NCBI RefSeq assembly: GCF_005239225.2
Contig: NC_133300.1
Span: 20,821,584 to 20,885,583, forward strand
Direction of reading: 5' to 3'
DNA from: Populus alba
Taxonomy: Eukaryota; Streptophyta; Magnoliopsida; Malpighiales; Salicaceae
Length of the DNA: 64,000 nt
The notes under the pieces are model-generated. The model saw only the letters and a program-made list of their open reading frames with translations. It made no database searches and was not told where the DNA came from. Position numbers and translations under genes: made by a program. Below are positions 7,302 through 64,000 of the stretch, piece by piece (position 1 is the stretch's first letter; each line of letters opens with the position of its first letter).

Positions 7302-7501
7302 ATTAATCATTTTTGCTCTGAAATTAATTACGGGATTGTGTTTCATACCAATTTCTTTAAATTTTTCAGCAATCACTAATCTGAAGAGATTCAATAAGGG
7401 CGTGTTCGTACTCAATGTTTCAACTGGAGTTTGACAACTCGAAAAGCTACCTTGGTCGGCAATTTCATTGAAGCGCAGAGAGGAGAGTGATCTAAGTCGA
7501 G

Positions 7502-17298: not shown

Positions 17299-17658
17299 TA
17301 TCTTTTTCTTCTTTGAACTGTGAATCCCTTAGCCACCTAGCTTTGTTTTGGCCTCTGTACAATATCATAAAGCAGTACTTGTTGTATTTACCTTCAAGCA
17401 TTTAAGGGAGTTGGTCTCTATGAATCTGTCTTTCCATATTGTCTCCTCTTGCTGTGCATATATGGTATACCATCTCTTCAATTTTGCAATGATTGGAATG
17501 AGGAATTAGTCACCATCTTCTTCGGCAATTTTTCAGATAGGGGTGGACCTAGATTCTTCCTTGAAAAGAAGAGAACAGAAACTATTAAACAGATTTAATG
17601 ATTTCGGTTAAAGGGTGTCGTTTATGATGTTGATATACATCCAAGAAATCTAGAGTAG
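17299..17658. other. Intergenic after array 1
   Basis: Unique-looking sequence that replaces the module from 17299. No gene recognised. The duplicated segment shared with 1-201 starts at 17659. Confidence 0.5.
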
Positions 17659-17859
17659 GATGATAGTTAGATCAACCGGAAAAGTGACTGGCATGGCGGA
17701 AAGCAGTTATTAAAACCATACCAAGATTTGAATCACGGGTTTGGTAGGATTCATCCACTCTCGAAGCTTGCAAGTATATTTTTGCATGAACTGAGATTTT
17801 TATCACCCAATTTTATTCGGTTCTATAGAAAAGAATGGTAATGCCTATTTTACAAACCA
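17659..17859. repeat. Segmental duplication, right copy (partner 1-201)
   Basis: Appears identical to 1-201. Here it continues into agtacattgag rather than into the segment shared with 54197. The near identity indicates a recent duplication or a conversion between sites 17.6 kb apart. Confidence 0.9.
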
Positions 17860-17950
17860 GTACATTGAGTGGGAATACTGATTTTTGTGACAGAAACACC
17901 TTTCTTCAACTATTAGCATATGTCATCTTTCTTTGTTAATTGCATGCAGA

Positions 17951-18070
17951 AAGAGCAGCAACATGTACACGAAAATCACCAAAGAAATCTACTGGAAGAA
18001 GGTTCAGAGTCGTTGAATGTGCGAGATCCTCTTCTAGACACTATTATGCAGGGGATTCATCATTTCTAAC
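17951..18070 (+). other. Possible orphan terminal exon
   Basis: A pyrimidine-rich stretch ending in ttgcatgcag is followed by an open frame of about 40 codons (KEQQHVHENHQRNLLEEG..., ending GIHHF then TAA). This looks like an acceptor site plus a last exon. The protein is not recognised and no partner exon was found, so chance is quite possible. Confidence 0.25.
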
Positions 18071-18546
18071 ATGCAACTCAATATAAAAGTTAAAAAAGTC
18101 ATGGTTTCTAGAGACATAGAATAAAAGGGTGACTAATTTAGTGAGAGAACACATGAAACAAAATACCGATTCTAAATGAGAGTTCCACTTCGATTTTAAG
18201 GATAGGATGATGTAGTCCATGGGGCCATATTCAAAAGGGAGATCAATGGACTGAGTATATTAGTATAAAGTACTAAAAAAGAACTCATAAAGAATGAACT
18301 CTTATATTATCTATATCTTATAATTTAGTACCTATATTTTATAAAACTAGCTTCCCTAATTTAATTTTTTCTATTTGAGATCCTGTATATTTTAATGTTC
18401 AAAAAAATAAAAAAAACTATTTTTTCTGTGCAAAAGATTTCCCAAGAAATTACATTTGCCATTAAATTCATATAATATATTTACAGAAAAAAACAAAACC
18501 TTTTGGGTCAAATTATTAAAAGAAAAGGAATAAACCCATCATTCCA

Positions 18547-18570
18547 TAACCCATAACCCATAACCCATAG
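18547..18570. repeat. ATAACCC heptamer repeat
   Basis: Just over three tandem copies of ataaccc, a telomere-like but not canonical (CCCTAAA) heptamer, about 410 bp upstream of the PRORP start. Confidence 0.7.
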
Positions 18571-18684
18571 GGACTAAACATGGGCCAAAACCCACAAAAC
18601 CCACATTGTTTGCCCTTCTGGGTTATCACCCGGATCCGGATTCATCCAATTACCGCCTTCTTCTCCTCCACCAAACCCCCAGTC

Positions 18685-18693
18685 TTAGGGTTT
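18685..18693 (-). promoter_or_regulatory. Telobox-like element upstream of PRORP
   Basis: TTAGGGTTT, the reverse complement of the telobox AAACCCTAA. Teloboxes are often found in the 5' regions of plant genes for translation and RNA-processing proteins. Its use here is inferred from position only. Confidence 0.45.
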
Positions 18694-18977
18694 TGGCTAT
18701 GTCCCTCCAAAGTCAAGGATTTCAAAGAACCCCAAAACCTCAAGGTTTTCTCTTTCTCTCAAATCACTGACTTTCTGATTCTGTATTGCATCAAAATTGA
18801 AACTTTAATGTTTTTTCTGCTAAAAAATGGAGAAACTTTGGCTGCTAAAAATGTTTTTTTATATATAATTTTTTTGTTAATTTCATGTAGTTTTTTATTT
18901 CTAATTTAGTATATAATTATTATTGCTTGTTAGTTAGGAAAAGAATTTGAAAGAGGAATTATCAGTATCTGTTAGAA

Positions 18978-28920: not shown

Positions 28921-29077
28921 TCCCCGAACTAGGCTTTATCAAGGAAAATTCAATGCATAAGCTTAGTTATATCTTCAATCAAGGAAAATTCTTATCTCTT
29001 CTCTTTGCTTACCTGCAATTCTTTTGCATTTTGCTCTCACCATTTTTCTGCTCTCGTACCCTTTGCAAAGATTCTCT

Positions 29078-32000
29078 ATGGCCTTTCTAGGTGAGATTGG
29101 ATCAGCATTTCTCAAAAGTGCTGTTGATCTTTTGGTCCATAAGTTTAATTCTCCTGAGGTTCAGCGGTTCTTTCAACGCCAGAAGCTGCTTGAAGGACGA
29201 CTCCCATTCAAGTTGACAAAAAGTTTGAAATCCGTCAACAGCATACTCCTTGATGCAGAGTGGAAGCAGACCACCAAGGTAGGTGTGAAGGATTGGCTCG
29301 ATGATGTTCAACATGTTGTTCATGAAGCTGAGGACTTGGTGGACGTGATTTTTTGTCAAGCTCGAGGATCAAAGTTGAAACCTGGCTATTTTAACACCGA
29401 GGACGAAATTATAAACAACTTGAAAGATATTCTTGAGAGACTAAGAGGGTTAGAGGAAAGGGCTCGTACACTCTGTCTGATAAAGAGTTTTAAGGGAAGC
29501 CTCCCATGCTTGAGCTTTGTGGAAGCTGAGTTTGGATCAGAATTTCTCAGCAGTTCTATTGTTCTCTTGGTCCAGCAGTTGGGTTCTCCGATTGAATTTC
29601 GAGGTTCCTTCAGACGCCAAATTCTCATCGAAGGACTCTTCGAGAAGTTGAAGGAACCTTTGAATACTATCAAGATCATGCTCCCTGAGGCTGAGACAAA
29701 GCAGATCACCAATGAAGACGTGAAGAATTGGCTTCAACAAGCTACACATGCCGTGTATGAAGCTGGAAATTTGCTGGACGAGATTGTTCATGAAGCTGGA
29801 CGAGCAGAATTGAAATCCAGCTCTCAAAGCTATCTAGATAAGATCCAGAACGTTTTCACCTCTCTTTGTACTTCTAACGAAAACAATAAGGAAGAGACAA
29901 TGGTAGAAAACTTAGTCAAGATTTTTGAAAAGCTTGATATGTTGGCAAAAGAAGGGGAGAACCGCCACAATCTTCTACGGAGTGATGGACATTCATATAT
30001 TGATAATGGTGTTTATGGCAGGGACTGTGATAAAGAAACCATAATGCCCTTGCTGCTATCAGAAGATGCAAAAGGTAAAAGCTTAGAAGCAATTGTTGTA
30101 GAGGGTATTGGCGGTATTGGTAAAACCACGTTTGCTAAGCTTGTCTACCTTGATATGAAGGTACAAGAGTGCTTTGATCTGAAAGCATGGGTCTACGTCT
30201 CGCAAGAATTTGATGCTGTCAGGATAGTAGTAGATATTCTGAAGAATATTGGTTCATTCAGTGGTGTTACCATGGATGCAAATGAGCTTCAAAAGGAGCT
30301 TAAGAAAAGATTGACAAGAAAGAAATTATTGCTTGTATTAGATGAAGTTTGGAAGGCAGATGATCAGCATGCTCAATGGAACTTCTTAGTCACAGCTTTG
30401 GGATCTGCAGCAAAGGGGAGCAAGATCATCATTACAGCACGAAAGATGAGTCCTACTGTAGCATCAGTCCTGCCATCTGTTACACCTTTTAATTTGAAGG
30501 AAATAAGCGATGATGCTTGCTGGGCCTTGTTTTTAGAACATGCTTTTTGTGGTGAAGAAAGCCAGGCTCGTTTGCCATTTGATATAAATTTCCGTTCGAA
30601 AGTATTGGGAATGTGCGGTGGCATACCTCTACGTGCAATAATGATTGGGAAACACCTTCGGTGCAAACCAGATTTGTACTGGGAAGAAATATTGAGTAGG
30701 GAGGATCTTCAACAGGTCATTATTCTTGCTACTATGAAATTAAGGTATTATAGATTTCCTTCAAATCTTAAACAATGCTTTGTTTACTGCTCACTCTTTC
30801 CTAAGGATCATTCATTTCGAAGGGAGACAATTGTACTTTTATGGCTGGCTAATGGTTTTCTAGGAGGGGATACGGGGAAGAAAGAAGTAGGATACGGGTA
30901 CTTTCAAAAACTTGTAGCCTACTCTTTTTTTCAACAAAAAAGTGACGATACATCATCCTTTGTTATGAATGACCTGGTACACGGTTGGGCTAAAGTTTTA
31001 CGTGGAGATTTTTCTGTCAGTTTGGATGATGGTGATTCACATGTTTCGAGCAAAGCTCGTCACTTATGGTGTGGTAGCATAAGAAGATATGAAGACCTAA
31101 AGAATCTTGTGGGCGATGGATTTCACAGTTTCCGCACCATTTTGCCAATATCAAATGAGTCCTTTTGGGGAGATGTTAATGTTGAGAAACTTAAGGCATT
31201 CAATCGCCTACGGGTATTGTCTTTGTCTAATATAAATCAGTTGCCTGATGTATTTTGCTGGCTGAAACACCTACGACATCTTGAAATCTCTGGAGAATCA
31301 ATAAAAAGTTTACCTGATACTTTGTGCATGACGTTCACTTTGCAAACATTAATCTTGCGCCAGTGCCCAAATCTAGCTGAGTTACCAGCCGACATTGTGA
31401 AGTTAACTGAACTGTGTCATCTTGATATTACAGAAACAGGATTGCAACAGACGCCGCCACAAATGGGCAAACTAAAAAAGCTTGAAACGTTGACTGATTT
31501 TTTTGTGGGACAACAACATGGGTGCAGAATTGATGAGCTAGGAGAGCTTAGATATCTACTGGGAGAACTTCGTATTTGGAACCTTCAAAATGTTTCTCAT
31601 GGTCTAAATGCATCTGAAGCCAATTTGATGGGCAAGGATCTTAAGAAGTTAGAGTTAAGATGGAGTGGCAGGAGGGATACAGATGATTCTTTAACTGAAG
31701 AAGCTGTGCTTGAAGAATTGCGGCCTAGTGCAAAAGTGGAAGATCTTTCTATAATCGGTTACGGAGGTAAAAAACTTCCAGGATGGGTAGGACACACTTC
31801 TTTCGAAAATATGGTCGATCTGAGGCTTAGTGGATGTAAATACTGTGTCTCTTTACCATCTCTTGGTCAGTTAAAAACTCTAAAAACGCTGTTGATTGAA
31901 GACTTTTATAATTTAGAGTATGTTGGTGATGAGTTCTATGGAAGTCCCTCCACCCAAGGGAATCCATTCCAATCCCTTGAAAGCCTAACTTTTGAGAGGA

Positions 32001-33652
32001 TGCTGCAATGGCGTGAATGGAAATCTAAAGGCAGAGCTTTCCGAAGCCTTCAAGTGCTTTGCATCAGAAAGTGTCCAAGCCTAACAGCACTGCCCAGCGA
32101 CCTTCCTTCTTTAGTGGAGCTTGAGATTGCAAAATGCAAGCTTGTGGGTCCACCTTCTGGCTGGTCTCCTGCACCCATTAGTAAAATAATTCTGGTTAAT
32201 GATTTTCATAAGGTGCAGTTAGAGAAATTGTCTTCTGACTCGCGAAGTCTCACAGTCGATTCATTCCATGCCTTGGATTTTATACGTCAGGAAATTGGAG
32301 AGTGGGGTTATGCTTGCTCTACTTTACAAAACATTGACATCACTCGCTATCCCCTTGAGTTCTTCCCACTAAATCTTTTCCCCCAGTTAAAGCAACTTGA
32401 GATCAGCAGGTGTCCAAAGCTCAAATCCCTTTGTGGACCAGAGGAACTTCTTGGTGATTCCATGTCTACCGAATCCTTTTGCAGTGGCTGTCCGACTTTG
32501 GAAACCCTTGCATTATCAAATTGCTCAAGTTTTGAATCATTGTTTTGCTCCCTCCCTTCCCTTGTGAATCTAAAAATAGTTGCTTGTGGGAAACTTCAGT
32601 CATTGCCTGGGATGGATTTCTCCGCTCCATTAGAACCGCTTGCTGGCAACAGTAATGGGAATCCGGAAGTCTGCAAGTACCCCAAATTGAAAATTCTTTC
32701 ACTTGAACATTGCTCGAATTTTGTATCATTGTTTTGCTCCCTCCCTTCCCTTGTGAATCTAAAAATAGTTGCTTGTGGGAAACTTCAGTCATTGCCTGGG
32801 ATGGATTTCTCCGCTTCATCAGAACCGCTTGCTGGCAACAGTAATTGGAATTCGAAAGTCTGCAAGTACCCAAAATTGAAAATTCTTTCAATAGAACACT
32901 GCTCAAATTTTGAATCATTGTTCTGCTCCCTACCTTCCCTTGTGAATCTAAAAATAGTTGCTTGTGGGAAACTTCAGTCATTGCCTGGGATGGATTTCTC
33001 CGCTTCATCAGAACCGCTTGCTGGCAACAGTAATGGAAATTCGGAAGCGTGCGAGTATCCCAATTTGAAACTTCTTTCACTAGAACATTGTTCAAATTTG
33101 AAAACAGTGCATTGCCTCCTCCCTTCTCTTGAGAATCTGGAATTATATAATTGTGGTCAACTTGAGCCATTTCTCGGAATGGGTTTGTCTTCATCTTCTG
33201 GATTGAGTTCGCCTTCCAAATTAAAATCATTAGTGATCCGAGGTTGCAGAAAACTCCTTGCTGGCTGTGACAAATGGGGTATGGGTAGATTCCCTTCTCT
33301 TTCAACCTTATCATTAGATTACAGTGATGAAGTGGAATCCTCCCTCAAGCAACGTTCGTTCTTCCCCGCGCCGTTCACATTTCTTTCAATCTGTGATCTT
33401 CCAAATCTGACGTCTCTGGAACTTCAAGGGTTCACGTTCCTTTATGGACTCGAACTCAAAGACTGCCCTAAGCTCCAATCCTTGTCAGAAGGCAGCCTGC
33501 CTTGTGATCTCTTCTCTCTGTACATCAGGTCATGTCCCTTGATGGAACAGAGGTGTCAACAGGATACAGGGGAAGACTGGCCCAAGATATCTCATGTCCC
33601 CAATATATCGATTGGTTACCACAATTTCAATGTGAAGAGCAGGAGATTGTAA
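29078..33652 (+). CDS. CC-NB-LRR immune receptor (R13L1-like), double CC domain
   Basis: Intact intracellular NLR of 1524 aa in one exon. The ATG at 29078 is chosen because the pseudogene copies share its context (tttgcaaagattc then ATG); the frame is open upstream but lacks an ATG. Two Rx-N coiled-coil domains lie in tandem: residues 1 to about 105 (MAFLGEIGSAFL, EDVID-like VHEAEDLVDVI) and about 148-250 (VEAEFGSEFLSSS, VYEAGNLLDEI). NB-ARC motifs: P-loop GIGGIGKTT about 343-351, RNBS-A FDLKAWVYVSQ, kinase-2 LLLVLDEVW with D422, RNBS-B GSKIIITAR, GLPL as CGGIPLRA, RNBS-D CFVYCSLFPK, and MHD degenerated to MND (630-632). About 850 residues of LRRs follow, with a 63-residue module repeated three times from residue 1149. 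AATAAA lies at 33839. It should recognise pathogen effectors; the Asn in MHD could alter its off-state. Confidence 0.95.
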   Translation: MAFLGEIGSAFLKSAVDLLVHKFNSPEVQRFFQRQKLLEGRLPFKLTKSLKSVNSILLDAEWKQTTKVGVKDWLDDVQHVVHEAEDLVDVIFCQARGSKLKPGYFNTEDEIINNLKDILERLRGLEERARTLCLIKSFKGSLPCLSFVEAEFGSEFLSSSIVLLVQQLGSPIEFRGSFRRQILIEGLFEKLKEPLNTIKIMLPEAETKQITNEDVKNWLQQATHAVYEAGNLLDEIVHEAGRAELKSSSQSYLDKIQNVFTSLCTSNENNKEETMVENLVKIFEKLDMLAKEGENRHNLLRSDGHSYIDNGVYGRDCDKETIMPLLLSEDAKGKSLEAIVVEGIGGIGKTTFAKLVYLDMKVQECFDLKAWVYVSQEFDAVRIVVDILKNIGSFSGVTMDANELQKELKKRLTRKKLLLVLDEVWKADDQHAQWNFLVTALGSAAKGSKIIITARKMSPTVASVLPSVTPFNLKEISDDACWALFLEHAFCGEESQARLPFDINFRSKVLGMCGGIPLRAIMIGKHLRCKPDLYWEEILSREDLQQVIILATMKLRYYRFPSNLKQCFVYCSLFPKDHSFRRETIVLLWLANGFLGGDTGKKEVGYGYFQKLVAYSFFQQKSDDTSSFVMNDLVHGWAKVLRGDFSVSLDDGDSHVSSKARHLWCGSIRRYEDLKNLVGDGFHSFRTILPISNESFWGDVNVEKLKAFNRLRVLSLSNINQLPDVFCWLKHLRHLEISGESIKSLPDTLCMTFTLQTLILRQCPNLAELPADIVKLTELCHLDITETGLQQTPPQMGKLKKLETLTDFFVGQQHGCRIDELGELRYLLGELRIWNLQNVSHGLNASEANLMGKDLKKLELRWSGRRDTDDSLTEEAVLEELRPSAKVEDLSIIGYGGKKLPGWVGHTSFENMVDLRLSGCKYCVSLPSLGQLKTLKTLLIEDFYNLEYVGDEFYGSPSTQGNPFQSLESLTFERMLQWREWKSKGRAFRSLQVLCIRKCPSLTALPSDLPSLVELEIAKCKLVGPPSGWSPAPISKIILVNDFHKVQLEKLSSDSRSLTVDSFHALDFIRQEIGEWGYACSTLQNIDITRYPLEFFPLNLFPQLKQLEISRCPKLKSLCGPEELLGDSMSTESFCSGCPTLETLALSNCSSFESLFCSLPSLVNLKIVACGKLQSLPGMDFSAPLEPLAGNSNGNPEVCKYPKLKILSLEHCSNFVSLFCSLPSLVNLKIVACGKLQSLPGMDFSASSEPLAGNSNWNSKVCKYPKLKILSIEHCSNFESLFCSLPSLVNLKIVACGKLQSLPGMDFSASSEPLAGNSNGNSEACEYPNLKLLSLEHCSNLKTVHCLLPSLENLELYNCGQLEPFLGMGLSSSSGLSSPSKLKSLVIRGCRKLLAGCDKWGMGRFPSLSTLSLDYSDEVESSLKQRSFFPAPFTFLSICDLPNLTSLELQGFTFLYGLELKDCPKLQSLSEGSLPCDLFSLYIRSCPLMEQRCQQDTGEDWPKISHVPNISIGYHNFNVKSRRL
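32522..33090 (+). repeat. Three 189-bp in-frame LRR repeats inside the CNL
   Basis: Units start at 32522, 32711 and 32900 (period 189 bp, 63 aa). Each encodes CSLPSLVNLKIVACGKLQ and then LPGMDFSA. Units are nearly identical at the DNA level, including synonymous sites, so the expansion is recent or homogenised. A fourth, diverged unit follows. Confidence 0.95.
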
Positions 33653-45073: not shown

Positions 45074-46746
45074 GCTTGAAAGCTTCAGTTTCAATGGGGT
45101 CCTAGAGGTTTAAGTTGAGATGAAAGGGCTTGCTGTGATTCTCTGTGGATGAAACAACATTATAAGAAAGGAACGGATGCGATCCTTGAGATGCATTCAG
45201 ACGCAAATTGTACCTTCTTCGGATTCATCAACAAACACTTGACCCCACACTGGCTTTAAGTCAAGTTAGATAAGGTTTAATTAGTTCGAGAAAATTAATG
45301 TTAATGACTTTCCATCTTCATAACCACTTGAAGATGTTTTCGGACGTCAGCCATGACATCGAAAAGGGTCCAAATTTCAAAGTCGATAAGATGGTTCCTC
45401 CCATTGATTTTTTTTTACAGAGACTATTCTTTTCTCACCGTGGAAAGTAAACCTTTGACCGTGCTGTCGTACGTAAATGTAATTGCGTCTATTCTTTTCT
45501 CATCGTGGAAAGTAAAGCCTTTGACCGTGCTGTCGTAATTGCATCCTTATGGCCTATGGGGTTTGTTGGCTGTGCTTTTTGACATTTATTTTTCACAGCG
45601 TATCTTAAGAAATTAGTTTGTCTAGTGATTTATCTTCGGCAGTTTCCATCATTCCTTTTCCTCATTTATTGTTCTTTTGCTCTAGTTTTGTTGGCTACCT
45701 TGCAATTATAAAAGATCTTGCTCAAGCTCCTACCCTGCGCTTCCCCCCCTTTCCTTTGGTTAGACAAACTCTTCACTTCTTGTAAAGTAGATCAACTTTT
45801 CGATCTAGTCGTTCAAAACTCTTTTTATGGCTTATTTGTTTATGTATTTTTCAATTTATTCCATCAAGTGTAGATATCATGTTTCATTTATTTTCTTAAT
45901 TAAAAGAAGTTTATAGCACTAGAAAACACGTCTAGAATTCTATCACCTTTTCCCCTTACACTAGAAATTAATTTAGAATCCTGTCCTGATATAAATTGTT
46001 TGGCACTACTCCAATGGGAAAGTATTTTTAAATTTTTTTTATTTTAAATTAATATTTTTTTTTATGTTTTCAGATCATTTTAATGTATTAATATCAAAAA
46101 TAATTTTTTAAAAAATAAAAATATATATTATTTTAATTTATTTTAAAATGAAAAGCATTTATTACCACTCTTAAATATTTAGGTATATTTGACACTCTTG
46201 ATCATTGATATACTTACCCTTTTGGAAGTATATAATGTATAATTTATTATTTTCTTCCTTTATAATATAATGGAAATAATAACTAATATGTATCTTTTCT
46301 TTCCAAATAATATTATCTTAGCCATTATAAATATTTCAAGTAAACGATCTCATCTTGCAAGCGCTGAAAACATTTTAAATTTCCAAGCATCAAATCACTC
46401 ACCAACCTCTAGAGATTAGAATATTTAGGCCGGCATTGACTTTTTGTGATGGAGAAAATATTGTTCATGGAGACTCTGCAGTCTTGAATACTTGATGTAC
46501 AGTATCTGGCCTCTTAATCTGCGTGCAGCTTCTTGTTCAAAAACACATCCTCGTCATGTCAAGAGGACTACTACTATGCTTGTGAAAGAGAATAGAATAC
46601 TTAGTGAACTATTTACAGTAAAATTAATTAACAATCTTGAGAGATTCAAAGAAATAATTCACATCTTGTTTCAGATAACATATTCTTTGATGAAAACGAA
46701 AAGAAGAGCAACAAGCACAGGAATTCAAGGCACAGCCTTGCTAAGA
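45074..46746. other. Upstream region of the LRR kinase and intergenic DNA
   Basis: The first few hundred bases contain the kinase promoter (read on -). An AT-rich dispersed repeat lies at about 46015-46165. A 95-codon frame at 46492-46779 has no recognised motif. Confidence 0.5.
45424..45537. repeat. Direct repeat, period 65 bp, two copies
   Basis: ctattcttttctcaccgtgg at 45424 recurs with one change at 45489, and both continue through gaccgtgctgtcgta. Unit length 65 bp with about 48 bp conserved. It lies about 350-460 bp upstream of the receptor kinase start. Confidence 0.85.
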
Positions 46747-47060
46747 ACAGTAATGATTAAAATCTTGAGTTTTCTTTGAATCCATTAATTTTGTTTGTGT
46801 TTTCTTTTTGTTCCTGTGGGAATGTAAATGATCATCACTTCATGTAATTTCAGCAGAGTTCAAGCCCAGAAAATAAGTTTGCTTTTATCCACTGGTTGCA
46901 ATGATATTTAATAACAATTAACAAGCTTAAATTCCCTCTTCAGTCTCCTAGCTAAGAAAGGCGTGTGCTTGCTCCTTAATGTCTTGGCAAGAAGAAAGGG
47001 GTTTAGGGTTCCTATTTCTTTTCTTGCTCTAGAAAATCTGAGTTCGAAGAGAATTTAGTA

Positions 47061-47116
<56 letters not shown>

Positions 47117-48020
47117 GATGAAGACTTGAAGCAGTTAATGGAATTCTAAATGTCGCGCCTTAAAGACAAAATAAATGTCGTTTCAAATTGATTATGAATG
47201 ATGATTAACCATATAATTAAAATAATCTAATCAATATTATCTCTTTATATTATATAGATATAAATAGAATCATCTAGCCATTATAAGTTTCTAATTATAA
47301 ATTTTCCTTAATCAGAAGAAAAAAATGAATAACATTTAGTAGTTGGATGGTATCTTTGCTATCGAAAAAAAACAAATGATGATTTTATTTATTTTTGTAA
47401 AGATTAAATTATAAATTATTTTCTTTATTTTTTAGAAATATATTAGTTAGTATTTTTTTTATTTCAAAAAACTAACTATTTAGTCCTTTTCCTTCATTTT
47501 ATGTTCTTTTCCATTTTTTTTAATTTTTTTTAAAAATAGATATTATAAAAAGATTGATGGGTAAAGAAATTATTTCTTATGATAAAGTAATAAAAAATTA
47601 AGGGTTCTCGACGATATGATCAAGTGACTCAATAATTAATTTTTTGAAATTAAAAAACCAATAATTTATTTCTCAAACTTGAAGAACTAATTTATAATTT
47701 ACTATTTTAAAAAAAAAATAAGCTAGACATAGACGAGTTATGTAAATTTAAAAATAAAAGCATCTTGATCAACTAATAGACCCGGGCCTATGAAAGCCCA
47801 AATTCCAAGCCTGGAATCAAAAGAAACCAGGAAACTAATCGGAAAAAGGAAAAGGCAGGACAGGCCCCGGATATGTGTACCACCGTCATCCACACGCCGC
47901 CGCTGCAAATTGGAAAAAGGAGAAATAATATTTCTTCCCCTCCGCCTTTGCCTCTCCCCCGTATCCAGTTAGCTTTCCAAGTTGGCTGTAGTTTAAATTT
48001 CTAAAAGCTCTATGGATAAG
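46747..48020. repeat. Segmental duplication, copy 1 (partner 54578-56050)
   Basis: Collinear with 54578-56050, starting near gtaatgattaaaatcttgag and ending near gctctatggataagaaggc. Differences: a long (TA)n run at 47064-47113 is absent from the partner, and the partner has about 265 extra bases at 55083-55350. It includes a copy of the dispersed repeat at 47390-47880. No coding sequence recognised. Confidence 0.85.
47064..47113. repeat. (TA)n microsatellite, about 50 bp
   Basis: Pure AT dinucleotide run, expanded in this copy of the duplication only. The partner has tttttatatata at the same place. Confidence 0.95.
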
Positions 48021-49080: not shown

Positions 49081-49461
49081 CCGAACATTCAAAAGGCCTT
49101 TTTTTCATAAATTAAAATTTTACTTGCACAAGCTTCATTAGCAACGAGTTCACACACAGACAGAGAGCCTTGCCACTCCTCTCCACCTCCCATTGGTCCC
49201 AATCCACGGTCCAAATTTCCACTAGTCGCGCTTCTTAAAACACAAAAATTCAATTCCCGCCTTAAAAACACCTCCCACTGGTCCATCCACAATGCACGCG
49301 GATCACAATTCTCGTCTTGATAATCCAAAGTCCAAACATTCCTACCCGTCGATTAATCCCTAGTCAACGGCCCCAATTCACTCTCCTCACTTTTCTTTAC
49401 TTCCCCACTGCTCAATTCACCATTTCCCTATCCACACTCACACCCTCTGCAAAGATTCATC
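49081..49461 (+). promoter_or_regulatory. Upstream region of NLR copy 4
   Basis: Less AT-rich than its surroundings. The last 80 bases match the leader of copies 1-3 (cttccccactgctcaattcacc and on to the ATG). Further up, cctcccattggtccca and cctcccactggtccat form a short direct repeat containing a CCAAT-box complement (attgg). It is probably a retained NLR promoter. Confidence 0.4.
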
Positions 49462-50452
49462 ATGGTAGTTGAGATAGCGTTAGCATTGAATACTGTTAAT
49501 GGCTTGCTCAATGGCGCCGAGGAGAAGCAAATAACTGAAGCTGGGAGAGATCTATTTACTGCGATGGTTCTGAAGACTTGGATCGCGGATGCTAAAGAAG
49601 CTATCTATGAAGCTGAAGACTTGTTGATTGAGATTGAAAATGAAGCTCGACGAATAGAGTGGGTAGCTGGCTCTCAAACTGGCATGTATCAGGTGCGCAA
49701 CTTTTTTATCTCCTTTCTTTGTCCTTTTAGCAAGAATGAGGAAGGAGAGATGACCCATAAATTAGAAATGATTTTCGAAAGACTTGAAAGGTTAGAAGAC
49801 AAAGCTCGTAGCCTCCATCTGATGAAGCAACCGCCATCTCACGAGCGCGTGCCTTCGACTTCTCTGCTAGGTCATACTCGAGTTTATGGTGGGGACCAAT
49901 CTAAGGAGGCCATTAAGAAGTTGCTTCTATTGATGCAGAAGGAGAAAGTTTGCAGGTAATTCCCATAGTGGGCATGCCTGGGATTGGCAAGATTTGTCTA
50001 CCATGGTGATGGTGTGCGAAAGTGGTTTGATCTGTAAGCATGGGTCTCTGTTTCACAAGATCTTAATGTTTTCAACCTAACAAAAATCATTCTCAAAGAG
50101 CTTGGGTTTTTGGATTGTGATCTCATGTCTCACAGTAGTCTTCACTGTAAACTCCGGGAGATATTGATGGGCAACAAGTTATTTCTTGTTTTAGATGATT
50201 TTTGGAATGATGATCCAGAGCAAAGCAAGTTTTTAATCACACCTTTGATGGGCGGGGCAAAGGTAATTAAGATTATCATTACAACATAATACGAGATAAA
50301 CATAGCATCATTAGCATTGTAAATTTTTCGTTCTTATTTTTTGCAAACTCTTTATCTTATTGCATTGCAGGGAATAAGTAAATAATCGTTGGTTGTTATT
50401 TTCTGAATATATATTTAGTGATAAAATTACAGACTATTTAAAAAAATATTTT
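49462..50452 (+). pseudogene. CC-NB-LRR pseudogene copy 4, 5' part
   Basis: The best-preserved N-terminus of the broken lineage. A 165-codon frame (49462-49959) runs without the early frameshift of copies 1-3 and reads FLCPFSKNEEGEMTHKLE, where those copies are frameshifted. About 110 bp after the start codon region are missing (IALAL joins NTVNGLLN). Half of the P-loop remains (VIPIVGMPGIGK at 49958-49992), but the TTLA that should follow is deleted and the frame is lost. RNBS-A, kinase-2 (LVLDDFWND, about 50185-50215) and RNBS-B follow with stops. At about 50452 the sequence switches to an ORMDL gene fragment. It resumes at 52068. Confidence 0.9.
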
Positions 50453-52067
50453 TCTAATCTGGGTCTCCTTATTCCCTTTGTTAAACTCATTCTCTAACCT
50501 TCTCCAACAACAAAGAAAACCAAAGAAATGTATGTTAAAGCTGAGCCAACGACAGATGTGAATAGGAACACGGAGTGGTTCACATATCCTGGAGTTTGGA
50601 CCACTTATATGCTCATCGTTTTCATGTCATGGCTCCTTGTTCTTTCCATCTTTGGTTGTTCTCCTGGGATGGCTTGGACTATTGTCCATTGCTGTCATTT
50701 CGCTGTAAGTTCTCTCGTTTGTTTTCTCGCTTACATACACAGTGCCTTCTCTATTGGGTTTAATTTGTTTGATTGAAACATTCATTCCTTGCTGATTCGA
50801 TGAGATAGTTTTGCTGTTGTGTTCTTTTTGGTTTTTGATCTGTTTTATGTTGGATTTGGATTTGTGGTTTTGTTCTTTCATTCTTCTTGTTTTTTTCTTA
50901 ATGAGATTTGAATGTGTATTTATGGTGTCGAGACTATGATAATTTATTTGGTTAAAGGGCTAGGTGAAGCTGATCATGGAGTTTGGGATTAGGGACAATT
51001 TGTGTCCTGTTAGGGCTCGTTGTGAAATGGCTTAAGATTGACTCATACAAGAAGAGCCTCAAAATTATTGAAAGTTTGATTTTCAATTTGCTTTGGTAAG
51101 TTCAATAGACTTAACCTGAATGTTAACATAAAGGAAATTAAATGTGACTTTGTATTGCCTAAAACCTGGTAGAGCTTGTGAATGGGTGATAATATACAAG
51201 AATTAAGCCAGATGCACATCACGCGAACAATTTTCATTTTAGCTAACTTGAATGAAGGTATTTCTGATAGTAATAGTGCAAAAGGATAGATTTCAAATTT
51301 ATATTTTTTTGATTGAGGAAGCTGGGGTTGACACGCTAAGGGACTCTTTTTCCAATATCATTTAGCTTCAGAACAAATTCCTTTTTCTAAATGTTGAGAT
51401 TTCTAGAGAATCAAATAGGTTCCCTTAATGTCAAGGTCATGAACTATATATTTTAGGATCTTATCTTTGCACGGGTTTTGGATTAACTTTCTAGAATTGT
51501 TTTGAAATACATCGATTTTCTTACACCTTAGACATGATAATTGAGGCTAAACAATGAAATATATTGCCCTGAACGTGCGCAGGCACATGTGTTCTTGTGT
51601 GTTGTTTTTTTTTCTTTTTTTGGGTGGGGGTGTAAATTGTGTTTGTATCTCTTTTGATAAACCGTAATTAGATAAAGGTTTTAGAAGATGCTACAGTTCT
51701 TGTTATAGCTTTGGTGCATGGATCACATGACCTGATCATTTTGTGGGAGGATTTGTTTGTGCTTCTTCTTATAGCCGATGAGTGTTAATCTGCTAGGTTC
51801 CTAGTATCTAAATAACCATTTTAGTGATTAGCAGTTGTCTACCATTGTTTTTTTCTCTTACCTCTTCAAATGGATCTCTTTTTTGTCATATGCAGATAGG
51901 TAAAATAATATGTTTCTACAGTCTTTTACATAAAGTATATTTGCTTATTTTACATTGTTCTTTCAACAATAATATCAGCCAAGCTATGGAGTAAAATTTG
52001 CTTTCATTTGTTTCATGCTACTGGAGATATTTGCTTTGCCTTTTGGAAAGAAATCTGTCATAGTGAG
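50453..52067 (+). pseudogene. ORMDL (ORM1-like) gene fragment: exon 1 and intron
   Basis: The frame from ATG 50528 reads MYVKAEPTTDVNRNTEWFTY, then WLLVLSIFGCSPGMAWTIV, an almost perfect plant ORMDL N-terminus. ORMDL proteins sit in the ER membrane and restrain serine palmitoyltransferase, the first step of sphingolipid synthesis. Exon 1 ends at 50704 before gtaagttc. The next exon (the TYHFFHWKKGTPF-type region) is not found in the following 1.36 kb, which looks like intron. At 52068 NLR sequence resumes, so the gene is truncated after one exon. It is embedded in NLR copy 4. Leader bases 50480-50527 are kept, so a short transcript is possible but not a full ORMDL. Confidence 0.88.
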
Positions 52068-52590
52068 AATATGTAAAGATTTGCTTTTAGCTGTAAAGTT
52101 ACTTCAAGGTTTTTTAAAGTTCAAAACAAATGATGATGAATGAAAAAAAAATATTGAACAACATGTGGGATTTGCAAGATGACCGGGGTCTACATGTTCT
52201 AAAAATAACTTATTATTACTTGTTGCAACGTTTAAAATGATGTTTTGTTTATTGTACAATTTTTTAAAAATGTTATAAATTTTGCAAAGAAGATATAGTT
52301 TTTTTGTTGATAGCTGAGGGTTTTCTGCTTGTTTATGATAGAAATAAAGAGATGAAAGAAACAAGATATATATACTTTGAAGATCTAGTATTGATATTCC
52401 TTTTTGAACAAGTAAGTGATAACTTACTATTATTCATAATGTATGATCTCACAAATGACTTGATAAAATTTGTGTATGGAGAGTTTGCTGTTTGTTTAAA
52501 TTATGGTGATTCTTGAAAGGTTTCTAAAAAGACTTGTGACTTATTGTATGTAAGAATTAGATTTGAAGATCTAGACAATTTCGTTTGCCT
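52068..52590 (+). pseudogene. CC-NB-LRR pseudogene copy 4, 3' part (hairpin left arm)
   Basis: NLR homology resumes at the GLPL region (gtaaagatttgcttttagct, matching the GLPLA codons of the other copies) and runs through RNBS-D and MHD (MYDLTNDLIKFVYGEF, 52304-52516). Many C-to-T and G-to-A changes mark it relative to copies 1-3, for example cttactattattcataatgt where the others have ctcaccattattcgtaatgc. It keeps AGA in KETRY, where copies 1-3 have the shared TGA. Homology to the family ends near 52590. Confidence 0.88.
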
Positions 52591-52709
52591 TTTAAAAAAA
52601 TTAATTCATTACTTTACAATGTTCAATGATTGAAGAAGAGTAGAGACAAAATTTGTGATATTTTTTTGCTTATTTGATCTTCTAGCACTTAATCTTTACG
52701 TCATGTGAG

Positions 52710-52745
52710 AGAGAAATATTGAACAATAACATGTGGGATTTGCGA
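52710..52745 (+). repeat. 36-bp NLR fragment in the hairpin loop
   Basis: agaaatattgaacaataaca and the following tgtgggatttg match 52145-52175 and the other copies (ILNNNMWDLQD region). It is a third, direct-orientation scrap of the same gene, sitting in the loop of the fold-back. Confidence 0.75.
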
Positions 52746-52852
52746 GATTGAGTGTTAGAACATCAAATAAGTAAAAAAATCTTACCAATCCTGTCTTGAC
52801 TTTTTTTAATAATTGAATATTGTGAAATAATGACTTAATTTTTTTTTAGAGG

Positions 52853-53596
52853 CACATGAAATTGTCTAGATCTTTCAGATCTAGTTCTTGCGTATGATAA
52901 ATGACAAGTCTTCTTATAAACCCTTCAAGAATCATCATTATCTAAACAAATATCAAACTCTCCATACACAAGTTTTGTCAAGTCATTGTAAGGTTATGCA
53001 TTACAAATAATGGTGAGTTATCACTTACTTGTTCAAAAAGAGATATTGATACAAGATCTTTGAAGCTTTATTTCCACTATAAGCAAGCAGAAAACCCTCA
53101 GCCATCTATAAAAGAACTACATCTTCCTTGCAAAATTTATAACCTTTAGAAAAAAATTGCACAATAAGCAAAACATCGTTTTAGACGTTGCGGCAAACAA
53201 TAATAGGTCACTTTTAGAACATGTAGATCTCAGTCATCTCGCAAATCTTACATGTTGCTGTTCAATATTTTTTTCCATTCGTCAGCATTTGTTTTGGATT
53301 TTAAGAGACCCTAAGTAATTTTACAGCTAAAGGCAAACCCTTGCATCTTTTCATTTTGGTGGAGTGAAACATTTATTCAAATGGTAAACGGGCACTATGA
53401 TTTTCATCACTAAATGCATATTCTGAAAATAACAACTAACGTTTTTTACTGTTTATTCTCGGTATAGGATGAAGAGTTTGTAAAAGATTAGGGTGAAGAT
53501 TTTGCACTAATGATGATCCTCCACTCTTCTCGCGTGTTGAAATGATAATCTTACTTCCCTTTGCCCCGACCATCAAAGGTGTGATTAAAAAATTTC
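52853..53596 (-). pseudogene. CC-NB-LRR fragment, inverted copy (hairpin right arm and beyond)
   Basis: Reading the minus strand from 53596 down, it covers RNBS-B (LITPLM.G.KGSKIII), RNBS-C, GLPL, RNBS-D and the MHD region, ending just after the aagatctagacaatt site. Bases 52853-53360 pair with the left arm. The outer 53361-53596 has no partner there, because the left side carries the ORMDL insert. Frameshifts and stops prevent translation. At 53596 it abuts an HMA exon in the opposite orientation. Confidence 0.88.
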
Positions 53597-54196: not shown

Positions 54197-54421
54197 GCTT
54201 GTTTGGGCAACTATTTTGTCTGTTTTCAATTTGTTAGTAAGTATATTGCAGAAATTGAGCCCACACATGAGCCGCTTTGGAGAAGAATTGCGGTATTTTG
54301 TACTGTGGAAGATGGACTATACTGCTATGTTTTGTGAGAACCAATTGATTTGTTTTAAAAATGTGCAATTGCATGAATTGAGTAAACGATTCCGAGTTAT
54401 CTTCATAATGGGGTGGTGTTG
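54197..54421. repeat. Segmental duplication (partner 206-430)
   Basis: About 225 bp, nearly identical to 206-430, 54 kb away. Minus-strand open stretches here (54317-54619, 54234-54428) suggest a decayed coding segment, but the protein is not recognised. Confidence 0.85.
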
Positions 54422-54577
54422 CTTGCATACGTGGAGGAGTTCAACAAAGTAGAGGATATCGTTTTTGACATCTATAATAACAGATGGTTCATCAATACTG
54501 GTCTTTGTGAGAGTTTGTTGGGCAAGAAAGACAGCAAATGACTTCAAGTTCTTGTTTTCAAATGGCAAGTAATGCTC

Positions 54578-56050
54578 AGAATAGTAATGATTAAAATCTT
54601 GAGTTTTCTTTGAATCCATTAATTTTATTTGTGTTTTCTTTTTGTTCCTATGGGAATTTAAATGATCATCACTTCATGTAATTTCAGCGGAGTTCAAGCC
54701 CATAAAATAAGTTTGTTTTTATCCACTGGTTGCAATGATATTTAATAACAATTAATTAACAAGCTTAAATTCCCTCTTCAGTCTCCTAGCTAAGAAAGGC
54801 GTGTACTTGCTCCTTAATGTCTTGGCAAGAAGAAAGGGGTTTAAGGTTCCTATTTCCTTTCTAGTGCTAGAAAATCTCGAGTTTGAATTAAGAGAATTTA
54901 GTAATTTGTTTTTATATATAGAAGATGAAGATTTGAAGCAGTTGACTTAGAGCAGTTAATGGAATTCTAAAGACAAAATAAATGTCGTTTCAAATTGATT
55001 ATGAATGATGATCAACCATATAAAACAATATCTAATAAATATTATCTCTTTATATTATATAGATATAAATAGAATCATCTAGCTATTGTGATTGATGATC
55101 AGCCCCCATAAATTTCTTTATGTAATTTATTCAACCCATCTTCTTGTTGCTTTTTATTTGCTTTCTTTTACAATATTTATTTACAAACAATCCTTTATTT
55201 TTCTTTTATATTTAAGCTCTTTATTTTTCCTTCAATTTTTTCCATCACCTCTTTCGTGTGGCATTGCTTGGGATAATATACGCCTTTTTTAAAGGTTAAC
55301 ATTGGATGATATCCACTCTCTATTTGATTTTGTAAAGTTGCTAGAAACCTAGATTAAGTTTCTAATTATAAATTTTCCTTAATCAGAAGAAAAAAATGAA
55401 TAACATTTAGTCATTGGCTGGTATCTTTGCTATCGAAAAGAAACAAATGGTGATTTTATTTATTTTTGTAAAGATTAAATTATAAATTATTTTATTTATT
55501 TTAAGAAATATATTAGTTAGTATTTTTTTTATTTCAAAAACTAACTATTTAGTCTTTTTCCAATTTTTTAAATTTTTTTAAAAATAGATATTATAAAAAG
55601 ATTGATGAGCAAAAAAATTATTTCTTGGGATAAAATAATAACAAATTAAGGGTTCTCAGACTCAATATTTAATTTTTTGAAATTAAAAAATTATTAATTT
55701 ATTTCTCAAACTTGAAGAACTTATTTATAATTTATTATTTTTTTTAAAAAAAAGGTTAGACACAGCCGAGTATCTCGATCAATTAATAAACCCGGGCTAT
55801 GAAAGCCCAAATTCCAAGCCTGGAATCAAAAGAAACCAGTAAATTAATTGAAAAAAAAAACAGGACAACACCAAATATATTTGTTTTTTATTTAAAAATA
55901 TACTAAGATAATATTTTTTTATTTTTTTAAAATTATTTTTAATATTAATATATCAAAATAATCTAAAAATATCTAAAAAAATTAATTTTTTTCAAAAAAA
56001 AAAATAAAAAAAATCAATATCTCTCAAAGCTCTATGGATAAGAAGGCGAG
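54578..56050. repeat. Segmental duplication, copy 2 (partner 46747-48020)
   Basis: Collinear with 46747-48020. It carries about 265 extra bases at 55083-55350 and lacks the TA expansion. It includes the third copy of the dispersed repeat at about 55470-55880. Between 55880 and 56020 it differs, with an AT-rich dispersed repeat. Confidence 0.85.
55083..55350. other. About 265-bp insertion relative to 46747-48020
   Basis: Present in this copy of the duplication and absent at 47275. A ctag motif occurs at both edges, which might be a target-site duplication. The 3' part (gtgtggcattgcttgggata) faintly recalls LTR ends. Alternatively it is ancestral and was deleted from the other copy. Confidence 0.4.
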
Positions 56051-58756: not shown

Positions 58757-58860
58757 AGGTTTTTATATAAACATGCTCACCTTGGTTAATAAAACATGTT
58801 TCGAGGTGATGCGTGGCTATCAAGAACAAATCTTAGTTGGCTTTTGTCTATGCAAATTCT
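58757..58860 (-). pseudogene. Short NPF fragment upstream of NLR copy 3
   Basis: About 100 bp (catgctcaccttggttaata through caaatcttagttggc) match the end of the NPF fragments nearest the NLR in copies A and B (3720-3810 and 8240-8330). Copy 3 therefore descends from the same NPF/NLR arrangement, with a breakpoint near 58757 that removed the rest of the transporter. Confidence 0.8.
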
Positions 58861-59984
58861 AAACATCTTCGATCAAATTCTCAATCTTGCTATTCTTTAC
58901 TTCCCTACTGCTCAATTCACCATTTTCCTGTCCACACTCACATCCTCTGGAAAGATTCATCATGGCAGTTGAGATTGCGTTAACATGTCTGAAAGGTGCT
59001 GCTGGTTTTCTAGGCCAACAATTGACTCCTGTGCTTTTGCACATGTGGGAAGCTCAATAAGTAAAAGCTCGAGAAGTTGAGAGAAACATTGAATAATGTT
59101 AATGGCTTGCTCAATGATGCCGAGGAGAAGCAAATAACTAAAGTTGGGAGAGATCTATTTACTGTGATGGTTCTGAAGACTTGGATTGCGGATGCTAAAG
59201 AAGTTATCTATGAAGTTGAAGACTTGTTGATTGAGACTGATAGTGAAGCACAACAAATAGTTTTGGTAGCTGGTTCTCAAACTAGCATGTATCAGGTGTG
59301 AAACTTTTTTATCTCCTTTCTTTGTCCTTAAGCAAGAATGAGGAAGGAGAGAGGCCCATAAATTAGAAAAGATTTTTGAAATACTTGAAAGGTTAGAAGA
59401 CAAATCTCGTAGCCTCCATCTAATGAAGCAACCACCATCTCATGAGTGCGTGCCTTTGACTTCTCTACTAGGTCATACTCGAGTTTATGGTAGGGACCAA
59501 TCTAAGGAGGCCATAAAGAAGTTGCTTTTATCTGATGATGCAGAAGGAGAAACCTTCTTGGCTAGATTTGTCTATGATAATGATGAAGTAAAAAAGTGGT
59601 TTGATCTGAAAGCATGGGTCTCTGTTTCGCAAGAACTTAATGTTCGTAAGGGTTTTTGGATTCAGATTCCATGCCTCCCAATAGTCTTCACTGTAAACTC
59701 CAAGAGATATTGAAGGGCAACAAGTTATTTCTTGTTTTAGATGATTTTTGGAATGATGATCCAGAGGAATGCAATTTTTTAATCGCACCTTTGATGGCTG
59801 GGGTAGAGGGAAGTAAGATTATCATTACAACACACAAGAAGAGCGAAAGATGATCATCATTGCAAAATCTTCACCCTAATCTTTTGCAAACTCTTTATCC
59901 TATTCCCTTAAAAGGAATAGGCAGTGACAAGTGTTGGTTGTTGTTTTCAGAATATGCATTTAATGATGCAAATCATAGTGCCCA

Positions 59985-61117
59985 TTCGTGTATTGTCTTT
60001 GCTCCATGTAGGTAAGTTGCCTAGCTCGATTGACAGCTTGAAACAACCATGGTATATAAACCTCTCAGAATCATCGGAACACAGGTTGTCTGAAACTGTG
60101 TGTACCTTGCACAACTTGCGGATACCAATCTTGCGTTGGTGCAAGAATCTTGTTGAGTTGCCAACCAACCTGATGAATCTAACAAACTTGTATCATCTGG
60201 ATATTAAAGGAACAAGACTGCAACAGATGACGCCTCAAATGGGTAAATGATCTAAACTTCAAACTTTGACTGATTTTTTTGTGGGTAAACGAAATGGATC
60301 CAGCATAAATGAAATAGGAGAGCTCAAATGCCTAGAGGGAAGACTCCGTACTTGGATGCTTCAAAATGTTGTCGACGCCCAAGATGCTTTAGGAGATAAT
60401 TTGGAAGGCACGAGGGATCTCAGAAAGTTAGATCTGAGGTGAAGCAATGATTCGTATGGTTCTCTTGATGAACGCGTGCTTCATCAACTAAAGCCTAATA
60501 TGAATGTGCGTTGTCTTGTAATTGTTGGTTATGGGGGTTCAAGATTCCCTGCTTGGTTAATAGACCCATTCTTAGTGGACCTTGAGGCTTAGTGAATGCC
60601 ATTGTTCCTTCCTGCCACCACTCGGTCAGTTAGCATATCTAAAAAGACTTTTGATCAAAGCATTCGATAAAGTCGAGAGTGTAGGTTGTGAGTTTTGTGG
60701 AAATTGCACTTCCACAAGCATTGCATTCAAATCACTCGAGAGCTTGACTTTTGAGAGGATGCCACAATGGTGTGAATGGGTTCCTAATGTTGCTGAAAGT
60801 GAAGAGAAAGCTTTTCCTCGCCTCCAAGTGCTTTGCATAAGTGAAGGTCCTAAATTAAAGAAAACCCTACCCAGCCACCTTCCTTCTTTAAAAGAACTCA
60901 CAATTACAAAGTGTTCCCAGTTTGTGCTTTCACTTCCAAGGCCTACAACCATTAACAAAATGTCTTTAAAGGACTCTTTAAATGACCATCCTCATGTGGT
61001 GAAATTAGAGACTTTGACTTCAGGCGGGCACAGTCTCCTAGTTCAATCTTGCTACTCCTTAGATTCCTTACTGAAGGAAATGGAGCAACTGGGTTATTTT
61101 CACCATATGAGGGAGAT
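59985..61117 (+). repeat. Array 2 module 1 (5'-truncated)
   Basis: The module begins part-way, at the LRR, because of the deletion at 59985. It reads LQQMTPQMGK then TGA at 60248, and has a private TGA in LDLR*SND near 60440. It shares acttttgatc and cctcatgtgg variants with module 3 but not module 2. Confidence 0.92.
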
Positions 61118-62599
61118 AGAGAGATGACAGAAACATGATACAGGTGCTTTGAAGATCTTGTATCAATGTCCCTTTTTGAACAAGTAAGTGATAACTCACC
61201 ATTATTCGCAATGCATGACCTCACAAATGACTTGGCAAAATTTGTGTATGGAGAGTTTGCTGTTTGTTTAGATGATGGCGATTCTTGGAAGGTTTCTAAG
61301 AAGACTCGTCACTTATCGTATGCAAGAACTAGATCTGAAGATCTGAACAATCCTGTGGGCCCTGATGAGGTACAAAATTTGCGTACAATTTTGTTAATAT
61401 CAAAGTTCTTTCTGGCAAACATGAATGACGAGGAAATCGGTGACTTTCTGGGAAGATTCCAGCCTCTTCGTGTATTGTCTTTGCTCCATGTAGGTAAGTT
61501 GCCTAGCTCGATTGGCAGCTTGAAACAACCATGGTATATAAACCTCTCAGAATCATCGGAACACAGGTTGTCTGAAACTGTGTGTACCTTGCACAACTTG
61601 CGGATACCAATCTTGCGTTGGTGCAAGAATCTTGTTGAGTTGCCAACCAACCTGATGAATCTAACAAACTTGTATCATCTGGATATTAAAGGAACAAGAC
61701 TGCAATAGATGACGCCTCAAATGGGTAAATGATCTAAACTTCAAACTTTGACTGATTTTTTTGTGGGTAAACGAAATGGATCCAGCATAAATGAAATAGG
61801 AGAGCTCAAATGCCTAGAGGGAAGACTCCGTACTTGGATGCTTCAAAATGTTGTCGACGCCCAAGATGCTTTAGGAGATAATTTGGAAGGCACGAGGGAT
61901 CTCAGAGAGTTAGATCTGAGGTGGAGCAATGATTCGTATGGTTCTCTTGATGAACGCGTGCTTCATCAACTAAAGCCTAATATGAATGTGCGTTGTCTTG
62001 TAATTGTTGGTTATGGGGGTTCAAGATTCCCTGCTTGGTTAATAGACCCATTCTTAGTGGACCTTGAGGCTTAGTGAATGCCATTGTTCCTTCCTGCCAC
62101 CACTCGGTCAGTTAGCATATCTAAAAAGACTTCTGATCAAAGCATTCGATAAAGTCGAGAGTGTAGGTTGTGAGTTTTGTGGAAATTGCACTTCCACAAG
62201 CATTGCATTCAAATCACTCGAGAGCTTGACTTTTGAGAGGATGCCACAATGGTGTGAATGGGTTCCTAATGTTGCTGAAAGTGAAGAGAAAGCTTTTCCT
62301 CGCCTCCAAGTGCTTTGCATAAGTGAAGGTCCTAAATTAAAGAAAACCCTACCCAGCCACCTTCCTTCTTTAAAAGAACTCACAATTACAAAGTGTTCCC
62401 AGTTTGTGCTTTCACTTCCAAGGCCTACAACCATTAACAAAATGTCTTTAAAGGACTCTTTAAATGACCATCCTCATATGGTGAAATTAGAGACTTTGAC
62501 TTCAGGCGGGCACAGTCTCCTAGTTCAATCTTGCTACTCCTTAGATTCCTTACTGAAGGAAATGGAGCAACTGGGTTATTTTCACCATATGAGGGAGAT
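61118..62599 (+). repeat. Array 2 module 2
   Basis: 1482 bp, one minisatellite unit. It has a TAG in LQ*MTP at 61706, the array-wide TGA after MGK at 61732 and the shared frameshift near 62054. Left and right junctions carry gggagatagagagatga. Confidence 0.93.
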
Positions 62600-64000
62600 A
62601 GAGAGATGACAGAAACATGATACAGGTGCTTTGAAGATCTTGTATCAATGTCCCTTTTTGAACAAGTAAGTGATAACTCACCATTATTCGCAATGCATGA
62701 CCTCACAAATGACTTGGCAAAATTTGTGTATGGAGAGTTTGCTGTTTGTTTAGATGATGGCGATTCTTGGAAGGTTTCTAAGAAGACTCGTCACTTATCG
62801 TATGCAAGAACTAGATCTGAAGATCTGAACAATCCTGTGGGCCCTGATGAGGTACAAAATTTGCGTACAATTTTGTTAATATCAAAGTTCTTTCTGGCAA
62901 ACATGAATGACGAGGAAATCGGTGACTTTCTGGGAAGATTCCAGCCTCTTCGTGTATTGTCTTTGCTCCATGTAGGTAAGTTGCCTAGCTCGATTGGCAG
63001 CTTGAAACAACCATGGTATATAAACCTCTCAGAATCATCGGAACACAGGTTGTCTGAAACTGTGTGTACCTTGCACAACTTGCGGATACCAATCTTGCGT
63101 TGGTGCAAGAATCTTGTTGAGTTGCCAACCAACCTGATGAATCTAACAAACTTGTATCATCTGGATATTAAAGGAACAAGACTGCAACAGATGACGCCTC
63201 AAATGGGTAAATGATCTAAACTTCAAACTTTGACTGATTTTTTTGTGGGTAAACGAAATGGATCCAGCATAAATGAAATAGGAGAGCTCAAATGCCTAGA
63301 GGGAAGACTCTGTACTTGGATGCTCCAAAATGTTGTCGACGCCCAAGATGCTTTAGGAGATAATTTGGAAGGCACGAGGGATCTCAGAAAGTTAGATCTG
63401 AGGTGGAGCAATGATTCGTATGGTTCTCTTGATGAACGCGTGCTTCATCAACTAAAGCCTAATATGAATGTGCGTTGTCTTGTAATTGTTGGTTATGGGG
63501 GTTCAAGATTCCCTGCTTGGTTAATAGACCCATTCTTAGTGGACCTTGAGGCTTAGTGAATGCCATTGTTCCTTCCTGCCACCACTCGGTCAGTTAGCAT
63601 ATCTAAAAAGACTTTTGATCAAAGCATTCGATAAAGTCGAGAGTGTAGGTTGTGAGTTTTGTGGAAATTGCACTTCCACAAGCATTGCATTCAAATCACT
63701 CGAGAGCTTGACTTTTGAGAGGATGCCACAATGGTGTGAATGGGTTCCTAATGTTGCTGAAAGTGAAGAGAAAGCTTTTCCTCGCCTCCAAGTGCTTTGC
63801 ATAAGTGAAGGTCCTAAATTAAAGAAAACCCTACCCAGCCACCTTCCTTCTTTAAAAGAACTCACAATTACAAAGTGTTCCCAGTTTGTGCTTTCACTTC
63901 CAAGGCCTACAACCATTAACAAAATGTCTTTAAAGGACTCTTTAAATGACCATCCTCATGTGGTGAAATTAGAGACTTTGACTTCAGGCGGGCACAGTCT
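62600..64000 (+). repeat. Array 2 module 3 (cut by window end)
   Basis: 1401 bp of an expected 1482. It matches module 2 almost base for base, but shares LQQ, LRKLDL, acttttgatc and cctcatgtgg with module 1. The array continues to the right of the window. Confidence 0.92.

Follow-up and report, generated by a model that had tools for sequence, protein, structure and literature searches.

An old NLR-derived inverted repeat in Populus alba bears C-to-T decay that may record dense methylation of the repeat

The hairpin and its NLR neighbourhood

The window analysed here is a stretch of 64,000 nucleotides of Populus alba DNA (C17:20821584-20885583). Its sole long NLR frame, at 28967-33652, is a CC-NLR frame of 1561 aa from stop to stop. 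Its LRR carries a tandem repeat of 189 bp (32520-33138), and its best protein matches come from Populus and Salix; it is 58-61% identical to the hairpin arms described below. The regions 2505-17298 and 58762-64000 hold NLR pseudogene copies and ~1.5-kb tandem units that are 86-99.6% alike, and the longest + strand stop-to-stop frames in the two regions are 226 and 197 aa. Triple repeats of 43 bp lie at 10002-10128 and 11570-11696, and 225-bp direct copies, 98% identical, lie 54 kb apart at 206-430 and 54197-54421. A direct duplication, 46739-47862 and 54573-55867 (81-85% identical, in two blocks), flanks one further NLR copy together with a long hairpin. The parts of this copy and of the hairpin are as follows.

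49390-50226, + strand: 5' portion of the NLR copy that continues into outer arm A, lying beyond the inverted repeat; serves as internal control and is poor in C-to-T changes
50227-50449, + strand: outer arm A, NLR homology to about 50451; separated from arm A by the insertion
50450-52053, + strand: insertion of 1604 bp, 98.3% identical to C3:16964887-16966490 (minus strand)
52064-52695, + strand: arm A, NLR sense, NB-ARC from GLPL to past MHD in 52064-52592, unrelated sequence in 52593-52695
52696-52744, + strand: loop of 49 nt, the end of the unrelated segment (through 52724) followed by a scrap of NLR sequence
52745-53353, - strand: arm B, inverted copy, mainly the unrelated segment in 52745-52847, then NLR antisense
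53354-53594, - strand: outer arm B, NLR homology onward to 53594 (equivalent to 9272 of the copy at 9517)

The inverted repeat that an earlier sequence-only reading had placed at 52068-53360 is confirmed, with arms at 52064-52695 and 52745-53353 around a 49-nt loop; the inverted homology goes further than that reading had it, to 53594 on one side and 50227 on the other. In the arm alignment, 503 of 603 ungapped columns are identical (83.4%), and the divergence, 16.6% of sites, disfavours a simple assembly artefact. The arms had been described as mostly NB-ARC sequence from GLPL to MHD, with one gap of about 30 bp and a near-perfect innermost 39 bp containing G:U wobbles. The NLR identity, the single large gap and the wobbles hold; the innermost ~100 bp are non-NLR, the biggest gap measures 25 nt, and the paired innermost stretch has 37 columns, among them G:U wobbles and a single C.C mismatch, before a U.C mismatch in the next column.

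Folding of the locus, as had been proposed, gave -679.9 kcal/mol for the 1290 nt of the + strand, with 562 pairs, 59 of them G:U, and a longest uninterrupted helix of 36. Thirty dinucleotide shuffles of this strand gave -256.5 +/- 9.2 kcal/mol (lowest -283.5), and the - strand folds at -575.1 kcal/mol. The hairpin is far beyond chance folding, and its 562 pairs form the long, near-continuous type of stem-loop that characterises an endogenous inverted-repeat siRNA (endoIR-siRNA) locus.

The NLR copy spans 49390-50451 upstream of arm A and is followed by the insertion and then by arm A itself. Since 50227-50426 and 53402-53594 are 74.9% identical in inverted orientation, the original repeat had ~0.85 kb per arm, with 50227-50449 plus 52064-52695 facing 52745-53594. 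The 1.6-kb insertion is, judging from its match on C3, recent, and it split the original arm A. It is non-NLR sequence with a few bases common to both joints, inspection by eye found no clear target-site duplication, and its C1 homologue is 79% identical over 1277 bp. The coiled-coil frame of the flanking copy starts with the ATG at 49462 and stays open up to a stop whose last base is 49959; this coiled-coil half of the broken copy, ~165 open codons with few C-to-T changes, is possibly a CC-only gene.

Origin and age of the fold-back

Arm A is 80-82% identical to the NLR copies at 9517-10036 and 4996-5523, and arm B with its flank is 81-82% identical to the same two. Both arms translate piecewise into NB-ARC sequence of the GLPL...MHD type, with stops and frameshifts, and their source was the NB-ARC of a CC-NLR pseudogene. 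From 52593 inward, arm A and the loop match C17:20887475-20887606 (85% over 132 bp). A whole-genome search with this inner segment, whose matches are lower bounds, found only that site itself and the two arms. The junction from NLR to unrelated sequence is common to both arms, and the same chimaeric junction in both shows a single inverted duplication, as the sequence-only reading had supposed; it rules out independent tail-to-tail NLR copies. An inverted repeat of gene sequence, as these NLR arms are, is also the form that PAI-type repeats take. The loop scrap at 52709-52748 is 92.5% identical to 9597-9636. Neighbouring matches have 16 nt in common where the first switch occurs and 5 nt at the other switch, which leads into arm B. 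From these junctions, we infer that the duplication formed by template switching at short homologies.

The fold-back is, by its divergence, old rather than young. Transversions separate the arms at 20 of 603 columns; the insertion differs from its C3 source by 14 transversions in about 1604 columns, and the homologous C3/C1 pair by 227 in 2896. The arm rate is therefore ~0.4 of that of the C3/C1 pair, which perhaps dates, as we assume, from the Salicaceae genome duplication; if it does, the age of the fold-back would be roughly 0.4 of that of the duplication. These counts lend no support to the view of the locus as an early stage.

Deamination along the repeat

We scored C>T and G>A changes relative to two long paralogues, at sites where both agree, and polarised the changes with eight NLR outgroups, one from the window and seven from other loci. 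The lines below give, for each part, C>T plus G>A per GC sites, other changes, and derived changes as deamination/reverse/transversion.

Arm A: 54/175; 26 other; derived 33/4/6 (16 ambiguous, 16 assigned to paralogues)
Arm B: 34/166; 18 other; derived 22/6/2 (8 ambiguous, 17 to paralogues)
Outer arm B: 15/81; 21 other; derived 8/3/4 (7 ambiguous, 10 to paralogues)
Outer arm A: 18/67; 22 other; derived 9/3/8 (19 ambiguous, 9 to paralogues)
Control, 49484-50225, the adjoining remainder of this NLR copy beyond the repeat: 10/258; 50 other; derived 3/13/13 (10 ambiguous, 17 to paralogues)

In polarised counts the arms differ from the control at p 2.6e-9, in a test that treats sites and arms as independent and concerns one locus. 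In outer arm B, eight deaminations are assigned to the arm and equally eight to the paralogues. Changes other than deamination are not elevated in the repeat. Along the contiguous copy, ten 75-bp bins have deamination fractions of 0-7% and the three that follow 38%, 31% and 62% (9/24, 8/26, 5/8), with a change point at 50285-50290 (support 50257-50298) that none of 2000 permutations equalled in strength. The step sits 30-70 bp inside the repeat edge at 50227, and the outermost bins of B are low as well (2/14 and 1/24, or 3/38). The inner unrelated segment has no deamination excess (8 of 19 arm-specific changes, with poor alignment and one outgroup); among its changes common to both arms, 6 of 10 are deamination. 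For dense methylation confined to the repeat, a feature of PAI-type repeats, what the sequence offers is a mutational trace: 54/175 and 34/166 in the arms versus 10/258 in the control, a step at 50257-50298, and an inner segment that is not raised.

The control stretch is itself unusually C>T-poor; against three paralogues the contrast of the arms is weaker (p 6e-4), and the history of the control may differ through gene conversion. This bears on a tentative alternative, to which we give a real but minority chance: an inert repeat left by NLR-cluster rearrangement, in which C-to-T change is ordinary AT-biased decay of a pseudogene and the outside stretch was converted from a working gene. The close copies in the window without a long frame, the near-open frame and few C>T changes of the control, and the lack of a deamination excess in the inner segment all agree with it. 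It accounts less well for a step that falls near the repeat edge, and for the lack of any deficit of non-deamination changes in the control (50 at ~670 sites) relative to arm A (26) and arm B (18), each with ~480 sites. Against it stand also the CHH changes per transversion, which are far lower in the array copies (25:68) and the paralogues (9:22) than in the arms (44:10, changes unique to one arm); the control stands at 7:26. Measured against all non-deamination changes, the CHH ratios are 70:44 in the arms, 25:84 for array singletons, 9:32 in the paralogues and 7:50 in the control.

By context, arm deamination amounts to 9/30 in CG, 9/25 in CHG and 70/286 in CHH, changes common to the arms being counted twice. 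The three paralogues outside the repeat show 9/828 in CHH and 18/183 in CG plus CHG, and the array copies 25/3577 in CHH, 3/446 in CG and 10/501 in CHG (singletons, sites times copies). The array copies are about as context-flat as the repeat, at a much lower rate. Over the whole repeat, deamination has no trinucleotide preference (CCH 23/89 versus CAH plus CTH 72/318), so that no methyltransferase preference is visible.

Spreading of methylation from the 1.6-kb insertion was considered and rejected. The insertion is young and lacks a C-to-T excess, 5 of its 10 insertion-side changes being deamination-type and its differences from the C3 source comprising 11 transitions and 14 transversions, and arm B, free of any insertion, decayed too.

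The decay also leans towards one strand. Over the whole repeat, C>T on the + strand reaches 72/244, compared with 49/245 for G>A (p 0.016), and the outer arms carry the same bias (13/33 versus 8/34, and 9/39 versus 3/36). The + strand RNA has 53 G:U pairs and 27 A.C mismatches (p 0.005). Such a pattern is to be expected from selection for pairing, and equally from a mutational bias caused by + strand transcription. We do not take the G:U excess as proof of selection, because the bias is present in the outer arms too and a mutational strand bias suffices. Flat contexts and strand bias are likewise what context-blind deamination of single-stranded DNA would leave, during replication or transcription through the palindrome and with no methylation involved. 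We regard this as improbable: both strands are affected, and in a cruciform it is the loop that is single-stranded and not the arms.

Small-RNA potential, interpretation and significance

The sequence-only reading had proposed a nascent MIRNA- or phasiRNA-type locus regulating NLRs in trans. Potential targets do exist: the proposed search for matches to arm-derived 21-mers found that 145 of 612 from arm A and 240 of 589 from arm B have at most two mismatches to positions 1-20000 of the window. Arm B 21-mers match the sense strand with at most one mismatch in 11 of 12 other NLR loci tested, with at least seven such 21-mers in 10 of the 12. The exception is L019, L011 was read on its own sense strand, and L013, L014, L015, L017 and L022 entered this comparison only, outside the outgroup set. 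For L012, L018 and L020, the three of these ten loci with match positions available, the matching 21-mers lie at 53153-53185 in arm B. In the portion of PMC10575705 drawn on here, NLR-targeting miRNAs are thought to originate as inverted repeats.

Several observations nevertheless make such a locus very unlikely. First, the stem exceeds 600 bp and the fold-back is old; plant MIRNA foldbacks are short, about 300 nt or less, and this one measures 1290 nt. Second, miR482/2118 acts at the P-loop; the arms begin at GLPL and contain no P-loop, and the motif GMPGIGK upstream of 50227 is presumably the P-loop remnant of the NLR copy that carries the arms, so the P-loop origin and direction of a miR482/2118-type regulator are absent. 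Third, Rfam gave 0 matches at gathering score across the 64-kb window, although a match is not required of a new MIRNA. Fourth, each arm 21-mer shows four or more mismatches to the sense strand of the intact NLR at 28967. Finally, the arm-matching part of the other copies (9790-10040 only) has no CHH excess (6 CHH to 18 other changes) and hence no trace of trans methylation; judged by mutational trace, the action of a PAI- or FERR-R-type trans-silencer is not seen. Although arm 21-mers closely match NLR copies, the copies themselves lack the corresponding trace, so any effect looks cis-acting.

We favour, with a probability of about 0.55, the reading that an old NLR inverted repeat drew dense methylation onto itself, guided by siRNAs or by pairing, and that its decay left a foldable hairpin rich in G:U, and not an early-stage MIRNA. 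The sequence of events would be as follows. Template switching produced an inverted duplication of an NLR-pseudogene fragment, and the repeat may then have attracted long-lasting dense cytosine methylation in all contexts, a step read from mutations, with either hairpin-derived siRNAs or DNA pairing as guide. Deamination of methylated cytosines would have worn down the arms, probably somewhat more on the + strand, and the + strand RNA could have stayed paired through G:U wobbles. If transcribed, the locus would be an endoIR-siRNA locus acting mainly in cis and not a MIRNA. The C-to-T decay in the repeat suggests, indirectly, that silencing acted on the locus.

Among the closest parallels are the Arabidopsis PAI1-PAI4 repeats and hpRNA transgenes. 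According to the sections of PMC9263138 used here, hpRNA transgenes with perfect repeats acquire methylation along the repeat and silence themselves, C-to-T replacement keeps a G:U hairpin and prevents methylation and self-silencing, and methylation of the PAI inverted repeat needs neither transcription nor RdDM factors. This independence means that the footprint favours methylation more than small RNAs, and that even proven methylation would be no proof of small RNAs. Likeness to these systems (PMC9263138, in part) lies in a repeat that attracts dense methylation, here proposed, and in C-to-T forms that keep a G:U hairpin; in the hpRNA transgenes, however, G:U pairs were designed, whereas here they would have come by decay and make up only 59 of 562 predicted pairs. 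Arabidopsis IR71 and IR2039, as excerpts of PMC4687873 present them, are likewise very long genomic stem-loops that could feed DCL2/3/4 without RDR, whereas the poplar arms are NLR pseudogene sequence, 17% diverged and C-to-T-biased.

Within the same genus, partial gene duplicates are reported, in the parts of PMC7674411 and PMC7465354 considered, to make siRNAs and guide methylation. These FERR-R/ARR17 repeats of the Populus Y region are inverted in several species, and their siRNAs and guidance of methylation are reported (P. deltoides) or proposed; they differ in acting in trans on an intact gene, with >90% identity in P. trichocarpa (same partial sources). The NLR hairpin has no trans trace, and the window's intact NLR shares only 58-61% identity with the arms. 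With miR482/2118 and NLR-derived MIRNAs it has in common the proposed route of inverted NLR duplication, and it departs from them in length, age and arms without a P-loop (PMC10575705, in part). Highly duplicated NLR genes are reported to be hypermethylated in non-CG contexts in the passages of PMC10271904 available, whereas here the copies outside the repeat lack a trace. Among the titles and abstract starts listed in the literature search, none named an inverted repeat of NLR sequence bearing a deamination footprint, a weak negative given that subscription papers lay mostly outside its scope.

A more far-reaching possibility, which we hold to be doubtful, is a natural G:U hairpin made through self-silencing: C-to-T decay, driven by methylation of the NLR inverted repeat, would have broken the DNA repeat while G:U pairs spared RNA pairing, freeing the locus from self-silencing to yield hairpin siRNAs. 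If true, it would provide an evolutionary path from a self-silenced inverted repeat to a stable small-RNA locus, recognisable in genomes by a deamination footprint that is bounded by the repeat edges. The step from inverted duplication to working small-RNA gene has been proposed and is seldom observed. If the footprint holds, the DNA itself could show which inverted repeats underwent silencing, its duration and the extent it covered, and it would become testable whether G:U decay lets hairpins escape self-silencing.
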